64,000 nt of DNA from Saprospiraceae bacterium (GTDB taxonomy: Bacteria > Bacteroidota > Bacteroidia > Chitinophagales > Saprospiraceae). Of the stretch, positions 5,409 through 46,583 are shown piece by piece. Numbering within the stretch: position 1 is the stretch's first letter; every line of letters starts with the position of its first letter. The notes beneath the pieces are model-generated. The model had not been told where the DNA came from and ran no database searches. It saw only the letters and a program-made list of their open reading frames with translations. The position numbers and the translations under genes are program-made. The stretch lies in assembly GCA_022841745.1 (NCBI GenBank), contig JALHQW010000001.1:77166-141165 (forward strand), in the 5' to 3' direction.

Positions 5409-6203
5409 ATGACCAACCGACCATTAATTTTCGTGACAAACGACGACGGCATCAATGCGCCGGGCCTCAAAGCCTTGGTAGAAGTTGCACGTGAATTGGG
5501 CGACCTTATCGTGGTGGCACCTGACTCTCCGCAGTCAGCCCAAGGCCACGCTATTACTATCAAAGACCCATTGCGACTCAAACAGGTTCATATTTTTGAG
5601 GGAATAGAGGCTTATGAATGCAGCGGCACGCCAGTGGATTGCGTGAAATTGGGAAAGCACGTGTTGCTGCACCAGCGAGAAGCCGACCTATGCGTTTCAG
5701 GCATCAATCATGGTTCAAATGCCTCCATCAATATCCTTTACTCTGGCACTATGTCCGCAGCAATGGAAGCCAGCTTGGAAGGTATCAATTCCATTGGATT
5801 CTCACTTTTGAATTATGAATGGGACGCTGATTTTGATGCTTGCAAACCGTTTTTGAAGCAAATCATGCAGTATGTCTTGGAGCATGGATTGGGTAACTGC
5901 AAATTATTGAACGTAAACATCCCTGCCGTGTCAACTGCCCTATTAAAAGGATTCCGGGTGTGCAGGCAGGCAGAGGCCCGTTGGATTGAGCGCTACCAAG
6001 AAGGCACAGACCCACGTGGGCAACGCTACTATTGGCTTACCGGAGAGTTTATGAACCATGACAAAGGAGAGGATACCGACGTATGGGCCTTGGAGAACAA
6101 CTATATTTCAGTCGTTCCATCTGGGCATGACCTTACCCGCTATGATGCCATTGAGGGCTTGAAGGCTTTGGAACAGAAAGCGGGTGTTCCTTCTCTGGAA
6201 TAA
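5409..6203 (+). CDS. surE: SurE, 5'/3'-nucleotidase
   Basis: Metal-dependent survival-protein-E nucleotidase that dephosphorylates nucleoside monophosphates in stationary phase. The 264-residue protein begins with the family block FVTNDDGINAPG; D12 and D13 bind the metal. The blocks APDSPQSAQGHAIT, CSGTPVDCVKLG and SGINHGSN follow in family order. The ATG at 5409 is chosen over the TTG at 5367 since it places the strand just before NDDG as in homologues. It starts 58 bases after glpD on the same strand and may be cotranscribed with it and the small membrane protein that follows. Confidence 0.93.
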   Translation: MTNRPLIFVTNDDGINAPGLKALVEVARELGDLIVVAPDSPQSAQGHAITIKDPLRLKQVHIFEGIEAYECSGTPVDCVKLGKHVLLHQREADLCVSGINHGSNASINILYSGTMSAAMEASLEGINSIGFSLLNYEWDADFDACKPFLKQIMQYVLEHGLGNCKLLNVNIPAVSTALLKGFRVCRQAEARWIERYQEGTDPRGQRYYWLTGEFMNHDKGEDTDVWALENNYISVVPSGHDLTRYDAIEGLKALEQKAGVPSLE

Positions 6204-39286: not shown

Positions 39287-39343
39287 GATGGAAATTGTGA
39301 AATCGAAGATTCACGCCAGTAAATTAGGAAATTGGAAATTGCA

Positions 39344-39982
39344 ATGAATTCAACAGAGCGCAAGTCACATTGGGACACCGTTTTTCAAACCCAAAAGCTC
39401 ACTGAAGTATCGTGGTACCAGGCCAAGCCCGATATTTCTTTGGACTACCTGCATGGTTTCAACTTGCCGAAGGACGCCAAAATCATTGACGTGGGCGGCG
39501 GCGACAGCCTGCTGGTGGACTACCTCATTGCCGAAGGCTACGGAGACGTTACTGTTCTGGACATTTCTGAAAAAGCCCTAGAACGGTCTAAGACAAGGAT
39601 TGGTAAAGTCGCTGCCGCTAAGGTGAAATGGGTGGTTTCTGACGCCGCCGCTTTTCAACCTGCGGAAAAGTACGACTTCTGGCACGACCGGGCAGCCTTC
39701 CACTTTTTTACCGAAGAAGCCGAGATTTTGAAATACATCAGCATAGTGCAACAATCGGTAAAGCCGGGTGGCTACCTCGTGCTTGGGACCTTTTCGGAAA
39801 ACGGCCCTGAGAAATGTTCTGGCCTGCCCGTGAAGCAATACAGTGAAGTGGCGATGAAAGAGCGCTTAAAGGAGTTTTTTGAAAAAGTAAAATGCCTGAC
39901 CGTGAAGCACTTGACGCCGAGCGAGAAGGTGCAGGAGTTTATTTTTTGTGGGTTCAGGCGGGTGGGTAACACGGTCTGCTAG
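39344..39982 (+). CDS. class I SAM-dependent methyltransferase, small-molecule type
   Basis: 212 residues with a Rossmann-like methyltransferase core: the SAM loop IIDVGGGDSLLVDYLI, the acidic residue of VLDISEKALE, VVSDAAAF and HDRAAFHFF. The opening HWDTVFQTQKLTEVSWYQAKP is shared with a Bacteroidota family of unknown substrate. The start at the ATG 39344 follows a purine-rich leader; the frame is open to 39332. The C-terminus ends GNTVC and its TAG lies inside the first REP palindrome (39966 on), so the last few residues derive from the repeat. Placed after SQR, it might act on a thiol or sulfide, but that is inference. Confidence 0.8.
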   Translation: MNSTERKSHWDTVFQTQKLTEVSWYQAKPDISLDYLHGFNLPKDAKIIDVGGGDSLLVDYLIAEGYGDVTVLDISEKALERSKTRIGKVAAAKVKWVVSDAAAFQPAEKYDFWHDRAAFHFFTEEAEILKYISIVQQSVKPGGYLVLGTFSENGPEKCSGLPVKQYSEVAMKERLKEFFEKVKCLTVKHLTPSEKVQEFIFCGFRRVGNTVC

Positions 39983-40138
39983 ACCGTGCTTTTACACTTC
40001 CCATGTAAGCAGGGATTCTTTCTTGGGAAAGCACGGACTGGCAGTCCGTGTTACGGGCGCACGGACTGGCAGTCCGTGTTACGGGCGCACGGACTAGCAG
40101 TCCGTGTTACGGGTGCACGGACTAGCAGTCCGTGTTAC
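39966..40138. repeat. left REP block flanking the RAYT gene
   Basis: One forward REP (GTAA at 39966-39969, then arms CACGGTCTG/CAGACCGTG with a TAG in the loop) is followed by a spacer and then four inverted REPs at 40031, 40059, 40087 and 40115 in a 28-base tandem period. Each has arms CACGGACT and AGTCCGTG and ends TTAC, the complement of GTAA. The last copy contains the stop codon of the RAYT gene. Confidence 0.95.
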
Positions 40139-40776
40139 GGAGCGTAAGTTTCAAACTCAGGATGAAGAAAACTGAGTTTCCAATCCGACCAATGATTGCA
40201 AAGGCCGGGTTTAACAGGGTTGTTCAAGTTGTAACGAATCCAATGGCCAAGTTCATCACGGTTCCGAATGAGGTGGTCGTAAGATTCTTGCATCCAAAAT
40301 TTTTCACCGACCCTATCCAATATTAGATTAGCTTCGGTGCCTGTATATGTTTTGATAGATTGAAGAATCCGAAACAACGGTTTCTGGATTTTGTATAGGA
40401 TGGTGTGGACATGATTCGGCATGATGGTCACATTGATGAGCTTATAACGCCCCTCTTTGTGCCAATGTACAAAACTGTCAAACACCAATTGACCAATATC
40501 AGCCTGGCCAAGATAAGTGGGACCAAAACTAGCATTATCAAGCAACTCATCGAATTTGCCATAATACAGTATTCGCTCCTTTCGCACAGCCTCGTTAAGC
40601 AGTTTGGCATCACTGATGGTTTTGGAAAGTTCTTTTTTATTTTGTTCGTATTCTGACTTTAGTCGAATTACAACTTCTTTGGGCAGACTGCCCTCCAACC
40701 TGAAACTAATGTTGAATACGCCATTTTCTGGTTGCCTATGAGGAAGGTTGCGGCGGTAATGGGTAGGTTCGGTCAT
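40135..40776 (-). CDS. REP-associated tyrosine transposase (RAYT, IS200/IS605-like Y1 family)
   Basis: 213-residue HUH-type single-strand DNA transposase. The N-terminus YRRNLPHRQPENGVFNISFRL is the typical RAYT/TnpA_REP opening. The HUH motif is H122-V-H124 in IMPNHVHTIL, and the nucleophile is Y166 in KFWMQESYDH, followed by the helix NRDELGHWIRYNLNNPVKPGL. All catalytic residues are present, so the enzyme looks intact. I use the ATG at 40776 rather than the frame start at 40851, since the preceding region belongs to the REP block. The TAA stop lies in the terminal REP (40135-40138). Flanking REP blocks on both sides are consistent with the enzyme mobilising these palindromes, which is inference. 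Confidence 0.92.
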   Translation of the reverse strand: MTEPTHYRRNLPHRQPENGVFNISFRLEGSLPKEVVIRLKSEYEQNKKELSKTISDAKLLNEAVRKERILYYGKFDELLDNASFGPTYLGQADIGQLVFDSFVHWHKEGRYKLINVTIMPNHVHTILYKIQKPLFRILQSIKTYTGTEANLILDRVGEKFWMQESYDHLIRNRDELGHWIRYNLNNPVKPGLCNHWSDWKLSFLHPEFETYAP

Positions 40777-40812
40777 AGTATTTGATTGAAATATTGAGTA
40801 GGTGCTGGTCAA

Positions 40813-41623
40813 GTAACATGGTTTGCAGGGCCGTGGGTAGTGACGTAACACGGTCTGCCAGACCGTGCTTCCAAACTTCCTAAGTTAACTGGGATTCGTT
40901 CTTGTGAAAGCACGGACTAGCAGTCCGTGTTACGGGGCCAGTAACACGGTCTGCCAGACCGTGCTTCCAAACTTCCCAAGTTAACTGGGATTCGTTCTTG
41001 TGAAAGCACGGACTAGCAGTCCGTGTTACGGGGCCAGTAACACGGTCTGCCAGGCCGTGCTTCCAAACTTCCCAAGTTAACTGGGATTCGTTCTTGTGAA
41101 AGCACGGACTAGCAGTCCGTGTTACGGGGCCAGTAACACGGTCTGCCAGACCGTGCTTCCAAACTTCCCAAGTTAACTGGGATTCGTTCTTGGGAAAGCA
41201 CGGACTAGCAGTTCGTGTTACGGGGCCAGTAACACGGTCTGCCAGGCCGTGCTTCCAAACTTCCCAAGTTAGCTGGGATTCGTTCTTGGGAAAGCACGGA
41301 CTAGCAGTTCGTGTTACGGGGCCAGTAACACGGTCTGCCAGACCGTGCTTCCACACTTCCCAAGTTAGCTGGGATTCGTTCTTGTGAAAGCACGGACTAG
41401 CAGTTCGTGTTACGGGGCCAGTAACACGGTCTGCCAGACCGTGCTTCCAAACTTCCCAAGTTAGCTGGGATTCGTTCTTGTGAAAGCACGGAGTAGCACT
41501 CCGTATTACTGCCAGTCCGTACTACTTGAGACAAATTTAACCGCAAAGACCAATTTTCACAAAATGTAAAAAATAATGGACAAGCTGGGAAGTGCAAAAG
41601 CACGGACTAGCAGTCCGTGTTAC
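40813..41623. repeat. right REP array: seven 96-bp dimers plus degenerate outer copies
   Basis: Seven units begin with GTAA at 40845, 40941, 41037, 41133, 41229, 41325 and 41421, period 96. Each unit holds a forward palindrome (arms CACGGTCTG/CAGACCGTG), a spacer with its own small inverted repeat (TCCCA/TGGGA around a GTTAAC core) and an inverted palindrome (arms CACGGACT/AGTCCGTG) ending TTAC. Degenerate copies flank the array at 40813-40836 and 41486-41509. A final inverted copy at 41600-41623 abuts the molybdopterin gene. Reading frames through the array are artefacts of the 96-base (32-codon) period. It contains no unique spacers, so it is not a CRISPR. Confidence 0.95.
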
Positions 41624-41626
41624 GTT

Positions 41627-44488
41627 ATGGGCTACAAACACAAACCAACCTTCATCGAAAAAATGGCCGAAAGCATCGGCCTCATCCCCAACCTCCACGG
41701 TGAGGAGGACTATGCTCCGTCCGTCGAGAGCCTGACCGAGCCGGGTGACCTGACCAAGTACCCACCGCCCAGCGAATGGAACGAATGGACGGAGTACGAG
41801 GCCAAGACCTGGCCAAAGAAGGAGAAGAAAACCTACTCCATCGTACCGACGACCTGCTTCAACTGCGAGTCGGCCTGCGGCATGTTGGCGTACATAGACA
41901 AGGAAACGAACCAAGTACGCAAGTTCGAGGGTAACCCGTGGCACCCCGGCAGCCGTGGGCGCAACTGCGCCAAAGGTCCGGCTACCATCAACCAAATCAC
42001 CGACCCCGACCGAATCTTGTACCCAATGAAGCGGGTAGGGGAGCGTGGCAGCGGCCAATGGGAGCGGGTGACCTGGGACTCTGTGCTCGACGACATCGCC
42101 GGGCGGATGCGCAAGGCCATACAAGAAGGGCGGAACAACGAAATTGCCTACCACGTCGGGCGGCCCGGCCATGAGGGTTATATGGACCGGGTGCTGAAAG
42201 GTTGGGGTGTGGACGGCCACAATTCCCACACCAATATCTGCTCGTCGGGGGCGAGGTTTGGCTATGCCATCTGGTACGGCCACGACCGCCCGTCGCCCGA
42301 CCATGCCAACGCCCATGCCATCCTGCTCATTTCGGCACACTTGGAATCGGGGCATTATTTCAACCCACATGCACAGCGCATTATGGAGGCGAAAATGAAG
42401 GGCGCAAAGCTCATCGTGCTCGACCCTCGCCTAAGCAATACCGCCAGCCTCGCCGATGAATGGCTGCCAACCTACCCCGGTACGGAGGCGGCGCTGTTGT
42501 TGGCCATTGCCCGTATCCTCTTGCAAAAAGGCTGGTACAACCGCCCCTACATGGAGCAGTGGACGAATTGGGATGCTTACATGAAATCGGAGCACCCGAC
42601 GAAACCGCAAACCTTCGAGGCATTCATTGATACACTTATTGAGGTGTACGCCGAGTACACGCCAGAATTTGCGGAGCGTGAAACGGGCATCCCCGTCGCC
42701 CAAACGCTCGAAGTGGCTCGAATCATCGGAGAGGCAGGTACCCGTTTTGCGCAGCACAACTGGCGAAGCGCCGGGAGCGGCAACCTCGGTGGCTGGGCAG
42801 TGGCAAGGGCGCTGCATTTTATCAGCGTCATTAACGGGTCGGTGGGCACGGTGGGCGGCACTTCGCCGAACACCTGGAACAAGTTCCACCCCCATTTCTT
42901 CGACACTCCCCCGGCGCAGAAGTTCTGGAACGAACTACATTTCCCGAAGGAATACCCACTTGCGTACTTTGAAATGAGCTTCCTCCTGCCGCACTTCCTA
43001 AAGGATGGGCGGGGCTTCATGGACGTATATTTCAGTCGGGTGTTCAACCCTGTTTGGACCTACCCTGATGGCTTCATGTGGATGGACGCCTACAAGGACG
43101 AGAAATGCTTCGGTCTGCACGCTGCCCTGACCCCAGTTTGGAGTGAAACTGCCTATTTCGCTGACTATGTGCTGCCGATGGGCCTGGCCAGCGAGCGCCA
43201 CGACCTGAACAGTTACGAGACACACAGCGGCATTTGGATTGCCTTTCGGCAACCTGTCCTTCGGGAAAAAGCGAGACGGGACGGCAAGAACTTCCAGTTC
43301 ACCTACGAGGTGAACCCCGGCGAGGTCTGGGAGGAGGACGAGTTTTGGATTCAACTTTCGTGGCGCATTGACCCCGACGGCTCGCTTGGCATTCGCAAGC
43401 ACTTCGAAAGCCCTTACCGTCCAGGCGAGTGCATCACCGTGGACGAGTACTACCGCTATATTTTCGAAGAAACAAAGGGATTGCCGGAGGCAGCCGCTAA
43501 GGAGGGCTTGACTGCGCTCGATTATATGCGAAAATACGGCGCATTCGTGGTGGAGGAAAGCGTTTATGAAGTAAACAAACGCCCACTTTCCCCAAAAGAA
43601 CTCGATGGCACAGAGGTCGCAGACGATGGCCGTGTTTTGAAAAAAGGCAAGACCGTCGGCATCGTTCACGAAGGAAAACCTGTGGAGGGTTTCCCGACGC
43701 CGAGCGGCAAGAACGAGTTCTTCAGCCAAACCATGATTGACTGGAAATGGCCGGAATACGCCATTCCGCAGTACATCAAGAGCCATATCCACGAGGATGA
43801 AATGGACCGCAGCAAGGGCGATTACCCGCTAGTGCCCACGTTCCGCCTACCGACGCTCATCCACTCCCGCAGCGGCAATGCAAAATGGCTCTATGAAATC
43901 GCCAACCGCAACCCGCTCTGGATGCACCCGAAGGACGCCGCTCAATTTGGGGTAAAAACGGGCGATTTGCTCCGCATCAACACCGAAATCGGCTATTTCG
44001 TGGACAAGGTATGGGTGACGGAAGGCATGAAGCCCGGTGTGGTTGCCTGCTCGCACCACCTTGGCCGCTGGCGCCGCCCCGCCGACCCTGCTGGCAACCG
44101 CTGGGCCACCGCCACCGTGCAGATTGACAACGACGGCAACGGCGGCTATAAAATGAAGCAGTTGAAGGGCATCCACCCGTTCAAGAGCGAGGACAAGGAC
44201 TCGTCCCGCATCTATTGGAGCGATGGCGGCGTCCACCAGAACATCACTTTCCCCGTCCACCCCGACCCGATTTCGGGGATGCACTGCTGGCACCAGAAGG
44301 TCAGGATTGAGAACGTACATCCGGGCGACCAGTATGGCGATATTTTCGTGGACACGAAGAAATCAATGGAGGTCTATCGCCGCTGGCTGGCATTGGCGAG
44401 GCCAGCGCCGGGGCCGGATGGGCTGCGGAGGCCGTTGTGGATGAAACGAGTGCTGAGGCCGGTGGAGGAGACGTTTTATATTAAATAG
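41627..44488 (+). CDS. molybdopterin oxidoreductase catalytic subunit (PsrA/SoeA-like)
   Basis: 953 residues from the ATG at 41627. The N-terminal 4Fe-4S site is C77, C80, C84 and C114 in TTCFNCESACG...GRNCAKG, and the bis-MGD molybdenum core and C-terminal molydopterin-binding domain (from about 745, LVPTFRLPTLIHSRSGNAKWLYEIANRNPLWMHPKDA) follow. There is no Tat signal, so the enzyme is probably cytoplasmic, like SoeA sulfite dehydrogenase. The active-site ligand residue is not identified with confidence. Two starts are possible: ATG 41627, directly after a REP copy, or ATG 41576, whose first 17 codons include REP-derived residues. It completes the complex with the Fe-S/NrfD fusion at 36371, but 1.6 kb of RAYT/REP DNA separates it from the SQR-methyltransferase genes. 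Confidence 0.88.
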   Translation: MGYKHKPTFIEKMAESIGLIPNLHGEEDYAPSVESLTEPGDLTKYPPPSEWNEWTEYEAKTWPKKEKKTYSIVPTTCFNCESACGMLAYIDKETNQVRKFEGNPWHPGSRGRNCAKGPATINQITDPDRILYPMKRVGERGSGQWERVTWDSVLDDIAGRMRKAIQEGRNNEIAYHVGRPGHEGYMDRVLKGWGVDGHNSHTNICSSGARFGYAIWYGHDRPSPDHANAHAILLISAHLESGHYFNPHAQRIMEAKMKGAKLIVLDPRLSNTASLADEWLPTYPGTEAALLLAIARILLQKGWYNRPYMEQWTNWDAYMKSEHPTKPQTFEAFIDTLIEVYAEYTPEFAERETGIPVAQTLEVARIIGEAGTRFAQHNWRSAGSGNLGGWAVARALHFISVINGSVGTVGGTSPNTWNKFHPHFFDTPPAQKFWNELHFPKEYPLAYFEMSFLLPHFLKDGRGFMDVYFSRVFNPVWTYPDGFMWMDAYKDEKCFGLHAALTPVWSETAYFADYVLPMGLASERHDLNSYETHSGIWIAFRQPVLREKARRDGKNFQFTYEVNPGEVWEEDEFWIQLSWRIDPDGSLGIRKHFESPYRPGECITVDEYYRYIFEETKGLPEAAAKEGLTALDYMRKYGAFVVEESVYEVNKRPLSPKELDGTEVADDGRVLKKGKTVGIVHEGKPVEGFPTPSGKNEFFSQTMIDWKWPEYAIPQYIKSHIHEDEMDRSKGDYPLVPTFRLPTLIHSRSGNAKWLYEIANRNPLWMHPKDAAQFGVKTGDLLRINTEIGYFVDKVWVTEGMKPGVVACSHHLGRWRRPADPAGNRWATATVQIDNDGNGGYKMKQLKGIHPFKSEDKDSSRIYWSDGGVHQNITFPVHPDPISGMHCWHQKVRIENVHPGDQYGDIFVDTKKSMEVYRRWLALARPAPGPDGLRRPLWMKRVLRPVEETFYIK

Positions 44489-46459: not shown

Positions 46460-46583
46460 GTAACACGGACTGCCAGTCCGTACTTTTGACGTAACACGGA
46501 CTGCCAGTCCGTGCTTTTGTAGGAACAAAAAATAGGTCTTGTTAAATGAAAGGGGGGAAGCACGGTCTGGCAGACCGTGTTAC
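46460..46583. repeat. cluster of three REPs between ggt and the GNAT-nitrilase gene
   Basis: Forward REPs at 46460-46483 and 46491-46514 (GTAA then arms CACGGACT/AGTCCGT), and an inverted copy at 46560-46583 with arms CACGGTCTG/CAGACCGTG ending TTAC. The inverted copy holds the TAA stop codon of ggt at 46580-46582. Confidence 0.93.

Follow-up and report, generated by a model that had tools for sequence, protein, structure and literature searches.

A Saprospiraceae REP-RAYT system whose guide tag has probably moved from GTAG to GTAA

The window analyzed here, a stretch of 64,000 nucleotides from the genome of a Saprospiraceae bacterium, contains a RAYT gene flanked by REP palindromes, and together with the REPs dispersed through the genome it probably represents a REP-RAYT (REPtron/REPIN) system in which the guide tag moved from GTAG to GTAA. 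A guide code for RAYTs is also proposed, which on balance appears likely: the residue after an invariant W would be one of the chief determinants of the tag's fourth base, Q going with GTAG and loss of Q with GTAA, GTAC or GTAT, and many REP families would have been missed in Bacteroidota, Chloroflexota and their neighbours by searches restricted to GTAG/GTGG. Guide recognition sets RAYTs apart from their IS200/IS605 relatives, and the main value of the system described here is a naturally changed tag accompanied by a covarying residue. In the searchable literature the fourth guide base was not found to be altered in any natural system, and a search made mostly without subscription papers returned neither a GTAA tag nor residue-tag covariation.

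The RAYT gene and its locus

The RAYT gene (40135..40776, minus strand) is an intact ORF encoding a Y1/HUH protein of 213 aa, and it terminates with a TAA codon (complement of 40135-40137) that belongs to a REP tag. The gene and three groups of REPs are bordered by a methyltransferase ORF (39332-39982) on one side and a molybdopterin oxidoreductase gene on the other. An earlier note, made from the sequence alone, had described an apparently intact gene with the motif H122-V-H124, and this was borne out (N121-H122-V-H124, NHVH at 121-124). The catalytic tyrosine, which the same note placed at Y166, has to be corrected, since alignment to Escherichia coli TnpAREP (PDB 4ER8) assigns it to Y182, in the motif Y182-NLNNP (YxxxNP type), and Y166 to the position of W99. 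This alignment also pairs W94 with W161, Q95 with M162, E100 with D167, H101 with H168 and R104 with R171. Within the guide-contact set W94/Q95/E100/R104, W161, D167 and R171 are kept and Q95 is replaced by M162.

The best PDB match of the RAYT is 4ER8 by both sequence profile and fold, the latter being the top PDB match in a fold search with the AlphaFold model (pLDDT 92). The NCBIfam model REP_Tyr_transpos (NF047646) gives 61 bits, under its curated cut-off of 80, and outscores Pfam Y1_Tnp, which gives 21, under its cut-off of 23. The protein is a divergent member of the REP_Tyr family and a domesticated transposase-like gene, present in one copy in the genome; the sole other match is 41% identical and has its own REPs. 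The gene is located upstream of the molybdopterin oxidoreductase gene in this genome (G000) and in two congeners, G004 (77% identical) and G010 (59%), and this common locus indicates that the RAYT has been inherited vertically.

REPs and REPINs in the window

Each REP is composed of GTAA, CACGG[T/A]CT, a 3-nt loop (mostly GCC or GCT) and AG[A/T]CCGTG. The arms that the earlier note distinguished as two types are alleles of one palindrome. Paired REPs are inverted with their tags outward and form an 89-bp REPIN, with a 7-bp spacer between units. The tagged palindromes and their outward pairing, which had been recognized from the sequence beforehand, were confirmed, and so was the placement of the RAYT between a REP block (39966-40138) of five REPs on one side and seven 96-bp units on the other.

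The block starts with the plus-strand REP GTAACACGGTCTGCTAGACCGTG (39966..39988), the left REP of a REPIN at 39966-40054, and includes four tandem REPs with 28-bp spacing on the minus strand (40032-40054, 40060-40082, 40088-40110 and 40116-40138). The 3' end of the methyltransferase ORF extends into the first REP, where the hairpin loop supplies the stop codon. On the other side, seven tandem REPINs (40845..41509, 89 bp plus the 7-bp spacer) start at 40845, 40941, 41037, 41133, 41229, 41325 and 41421; these direct repeats with a 96-bp period are 93-98% alike where complete, and the right REP of the seventh REPIN is degenerate (CACGGAGTAGCACTCCGTATTAC). A single minus-strand REP (41601..41623), in a position common to G004 and G006, stops three bases short of the probable ATG (41627) of the molybdopterin oxidoreductase gene, and its hairpin occupies the ribosome-binding position of this gene (window 41601-41629). 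An extra cluster of the same family occurs outside 39966-41623, at 46460..46583 (46460-46482 and 46491-46513, plus strand; 46561-46583, minus strand; positions converted from G000:C1 coordinates).

The genome-wide population and its history

Counting GTAA palindromes across the genome against the RAYT gene had been suggested in the earlier note as a check. A search of the 8.4-Mb assembly (178 contigs) that allowed up to 2 mismatches yielded 131 matches, part of the 2-mismatch ones representing the same palindrome read on its reverse strand, compared with a single RAYT of this type; a reversed control gave 0, which puts the count far above chance. Among 80 fetched REPs the tag was GTAA in 76 and GTAG in none, so that the guide tetranucleotides known from other systems, GTAG and GTGG, are replaced here by GTAA; the earlier note had also listed GGAG for known systems, a tag that the literature gives as GTGG alongside GTAG (PMC6006769, PMC2817692). 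REPs flank the RAYT and are also dispersed through the genome, the modal REPIN length being 89-90 bp and the commonest site type '+-'. The palindrome family is confined to congeners, with 95 matches in G001, 54 in G004, 51 in G011 and 43 in G006 and at most 12 in other genomes; relatives that bear names assign this group to Saprospiraceae. The assignment to a Bacteroidota REP-RAYT system stands: the RAYT belongs to a Saprospiraceae genome and has a cognate REP/REPIN population throughout that genome.

Local duplication, to which the array had been attributed, is supported by the orthologous place in G004, which holds one REPIN and one REP vs seven REPINs and one REP in this genome, and the growth of the array is specific to the latter. 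Other sites are also larger here than in congeners ('+-------' vs '-', '+++----' vs '+-' and '+---' vs '+-'). In G006 the contig breaks within the array. In G001 and G011 continuous contigs show the same order of genes, the RAYT being absent at the locus, where G001 retains one relic REP, and both genomes keep many intact REPs. The outcome that the earlier note would have taken as a refutation, REPs equally common in relatives lacking any RAYT, was therefore seen in part, and a strict dependence of REPs on the gene is not supported. Either the RAYT was lost recently in G001 and G011 while the REPs persisted, which is the simplest reading, or it has been relocated to a region missing from the assembly.

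REPs at stop codons

At ~46 of 80 REP sites from three genomes (about 58%, one site having been entered twice), an ORF of 80 codons or more terminates exactly on the TAA of the tag, the RAYT gene being one such ORF, and no other offset between tag and stop codon exceeds 2 sites. REP termini with GTAG were reported to supply stop codons of flanking ORFs (Di Nocera et al., 2013, PMC3733652), and the TAA-stop REPs are therefore regarded as the GTAA counterpart of a known arrangement. Insertion at pre-existing GTAA of stop codons was considered as a target-site rule; the corresponding gene ends of relatives in which the site is empty show mixed sequences, some having GTAA and others ATAA, CTAA, TAG or TGA.

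These stop codons are one argument for a different view of the whole system, namely that the REPs are 3'-end signals (stop codon plus hairpin) maintained by the host under selection, that the RAYT is dispensable and no longer moves them, and that GTAA arose from selection for TAA stops and not through recognition by the enzyme. Many REP sites are common to congeners, and the 95 and 51 matches kept by G001 and G011, RAYT absent at the locus, also fit this view. However, arrays at one and the same site differ in copy number between genomes, and a given gene junction may hold a REPIN in one genome and none in another: a REPIN between the FeS and SQR genes is found in G001 and G011 and is absent in G000, G004 and G008, and among five gene ends compared two are occupied in this genome only, the rest being shared with some relatives. 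In addition, the covariation of residue 162 with the tag, presented below, includes GTAC and GTAT, neither of which contains a stop codon, and of 53 tags examined in G291, where the tag is mostly GTAG, only 4 serve as stops. Maintenance of the REPs as host signals is thus considered unlikely, and a REP-RAYT system with a shifted tag remains the preferred reading.

Covariation of the tag with residue 162

A set of RAYT loci encoding 194 distinct intact proteins was assembled from Saprospiraceae, other Bacteroidota and further phyla, and their tags were read from recurring flanking hairpins, blind to the protein. A recurring GTAN family was detected at 118 loci and a clear majority base at 88, many of the calls being based on just 2-4 REP copies. 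The residue after the invariant W is Q at 51 of these 88 loci; 34 of the 51 have GTAG and the other 17 GTAA, GTAC or GTAT. Where Q is missing, GTAG occurs at 6 of 37 loci, five of the six belonging to one divergent clade (G, D or S162), and at 1 of 32 outside this clade. Column 162 is the most informative of all columns on the fourth base of the tag (z 9.2, next 5.2). On a tree built without this column, independent pairs differing in Q numbered 8.9 with the tag and 0.1 against (median p 0.004), and column 162 was the best of 319 column/residue splits, other columns reaching a net of at most 4.1.

The relationship extends to close relatives. G291 is the nearest relative that keeps Q (RAYT 57% identical), and its homologous palindromes have 85 GTAG and 15 GTAA tags among the 100 matches listed. 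The genus g129 (G233, G285, G345), whose RAYTs apparently represent one locus, carries Q (G233) or H (G345 and G285) at the guide-contact position. The REPs flanking these genes fit the rule, including two GTAG REPs beside the Q RAYT of G233, yet in G233 the dispersed population departs from it, with GTAA on 28 of 32 homologous REPs genome-wide; g129 was accordingly dropped as a clean replicate, and a tag switch may be in progress there. A second RAYT fragment in this genus has its own unrelated GTAG REPs. Q looks close to necessary for GTAG and is not sufficient, because of the 17 of 51 Q loci without GTAG and the mostly GTAA population of G233. Residue 95 need not act alone, since in the C-terminal tail of the E. 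coli protein residues G160 and E161 touch the two final bases of the guide (Corneloup et al., 2021, PMC8266576). In an exploratory comparison of the base 3' of the stem (predicted cleavage dinucleotide), C was frequent after GTAG, G after GTAC, and T did not occur after GTAA.

The exceptions among Q loci, the G233 genome and the few copies per locus would also be compatible with an artefact of shared ancestry or tag calling, residue 162 not reading the guide. Against this, protein sequences played no part in tag calling, column 162 comes first in the plain and in the tree-controlled scan and aligns to the E. coli guide-contact residue Q95 (PMC6006769), and although the idea of covariation arose on the first loci (L031-L069), those gathered later are significant by themselves (p = 2.3e-5). 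An artefact is therefore judged quite unlikely. The tag is GTAA, as the earlier note had proposed, and the proposal that it is the guide of this RAYT gains support from the way in which tag and guide-contact residue vary together, so that the protein would read GTAA.

Other RAYT and Y1 genes

A conventional insertion sequence of the IS200/IS605 type, with subterminal hairpins and its own MITEs, would share the Y1/HUH fold and the hairpins on both sides, but this reading was rejected as highly improbable, since the gene is single-copy at a locus fixed in three genomes, near-identical full copies at different loci were searched for in this genome and none was found, the other match (41% identical) has its own REPs and the REP_Tyr model beats Y1_Tnp.

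This other match is a second RAYT (L063/L070, G000:C24:91235-91903) that carries W-E and is flanked by an unrelated REP array with a GTAC tag in 12 of 13 units; the genome search for its GTAC family was noisy (control 11/26). Two further Y1 transposase genes of equal match score (L036 and L037, G000:C92:3506-3736 and 5743-5973), located 2.2 kb apart and each flanked by GGTTCAAGTC...GACTTGAACC hairpins, are a tandem duplication of another Y1 type. In other genomes RAYT domains were detected in frame within three unrelated large DNA-methyltransferase ORFs, of 1288 aa with DUF1156 (L431, G385:C1), 1428 aa with Eco57I (L432, G339:C71) and 1362 aa with N6_N4_Mtase (L433, G213:C215); the repeated peptides that flank these domains may be translated REPs, and comparable open frames of 1082-1332 aa occur in several other genomes.

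Proposed mechanism and significance

The RAYT, a vertically inherited gene present in one copy, would encode an HUH endonuclease of subclass 2.4 type. By analogy with the E. coli enzyme, it would bind one strand of the REP hairpin plus the 5' tetranucleotide and cut and rejoin single-stranded DNA, and as a result 89-bp REPINs would spread and also multiply locally, mostly at gene ends. The residue equivalent to the guide-contact Q95 would help to read the fourth base of the guide, and in this lineage the change of Q to M162 would have gone together with a change of the REP population to GTAA. Binding, cleavage, mobilization and a direct M162-A4 contact are all predicted from E. coli TnpAREP (PMC8266576, PMC6006769).

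Changes of the tag have repeatedly been accompanied by changes of one contact residue, also among close relatives with homologous palindromes, so that the question of how the tetranucleotide is read may be reduced to a one-residue swap. Searching by the usual GTAG/GTGG rule also leaves REP families uncounted: only hairpins with one of these two tags were accepted in the REP search of Quentin et al. (2018, PMC6006769), and GTAA, GTAC and GTAT families were therefore invisible to it.

Comparison with known systems

RAYT subclass 2.4 comprises the RAYTs of Bacteroidota (Quentin et al., 2018, PMC6006769; the table gives '(4)' as the group in the older classification). The protein described here resembles this subclass in its Bacteroidota host, its NH[IFV]H HUH motif (NHVH), its Y-x-x-NNP-type tyrosine motif and its flanking REPs, and differs by W-M instead of W-Q, YNLNNP instead of YIxNNP and the GTAA tag. 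W94, Q95 and R104 were reported as well conserved (PMC6006769). With E. coli TnpAREP (4ER8), its best profile and fold match, it shares W94, R104 and the catalytic tyrosine (W161, R171 and Y182), E100 being conservatively replaced by D167, whereas Q95 corresponds to M162 and the E. coli REPs are bulged and tagged GTAG.

The REPtron Sm of Stenotrophomonas maltophilia (Corneloup et al., 2021, PMC8266576) likewise has a perfect 8-bp stem with the tetranucleotide directly at the stem, and its 3-nt loop is GCT, compared with GCC or GCT here; it differs in its GTAG tag, its group 3 protein and its activity in vitro, the present system being known from sequence. REPINs as defined by Bertels and Rainey (2011, PMC3116915) are also units of two inverted REPs, dispersed and with one cognate RAYT, while a Bacteroidota host, the GTAA tag and strong tandem growth at the RAYT locus are particular to the system reported here. 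Finally, the GTAG REPs of Di Nocera et al. (2013, PMC3733652) provide TAG stops from GTAG, and those described here provide TAA from GTAA, at the majority of sites given above.
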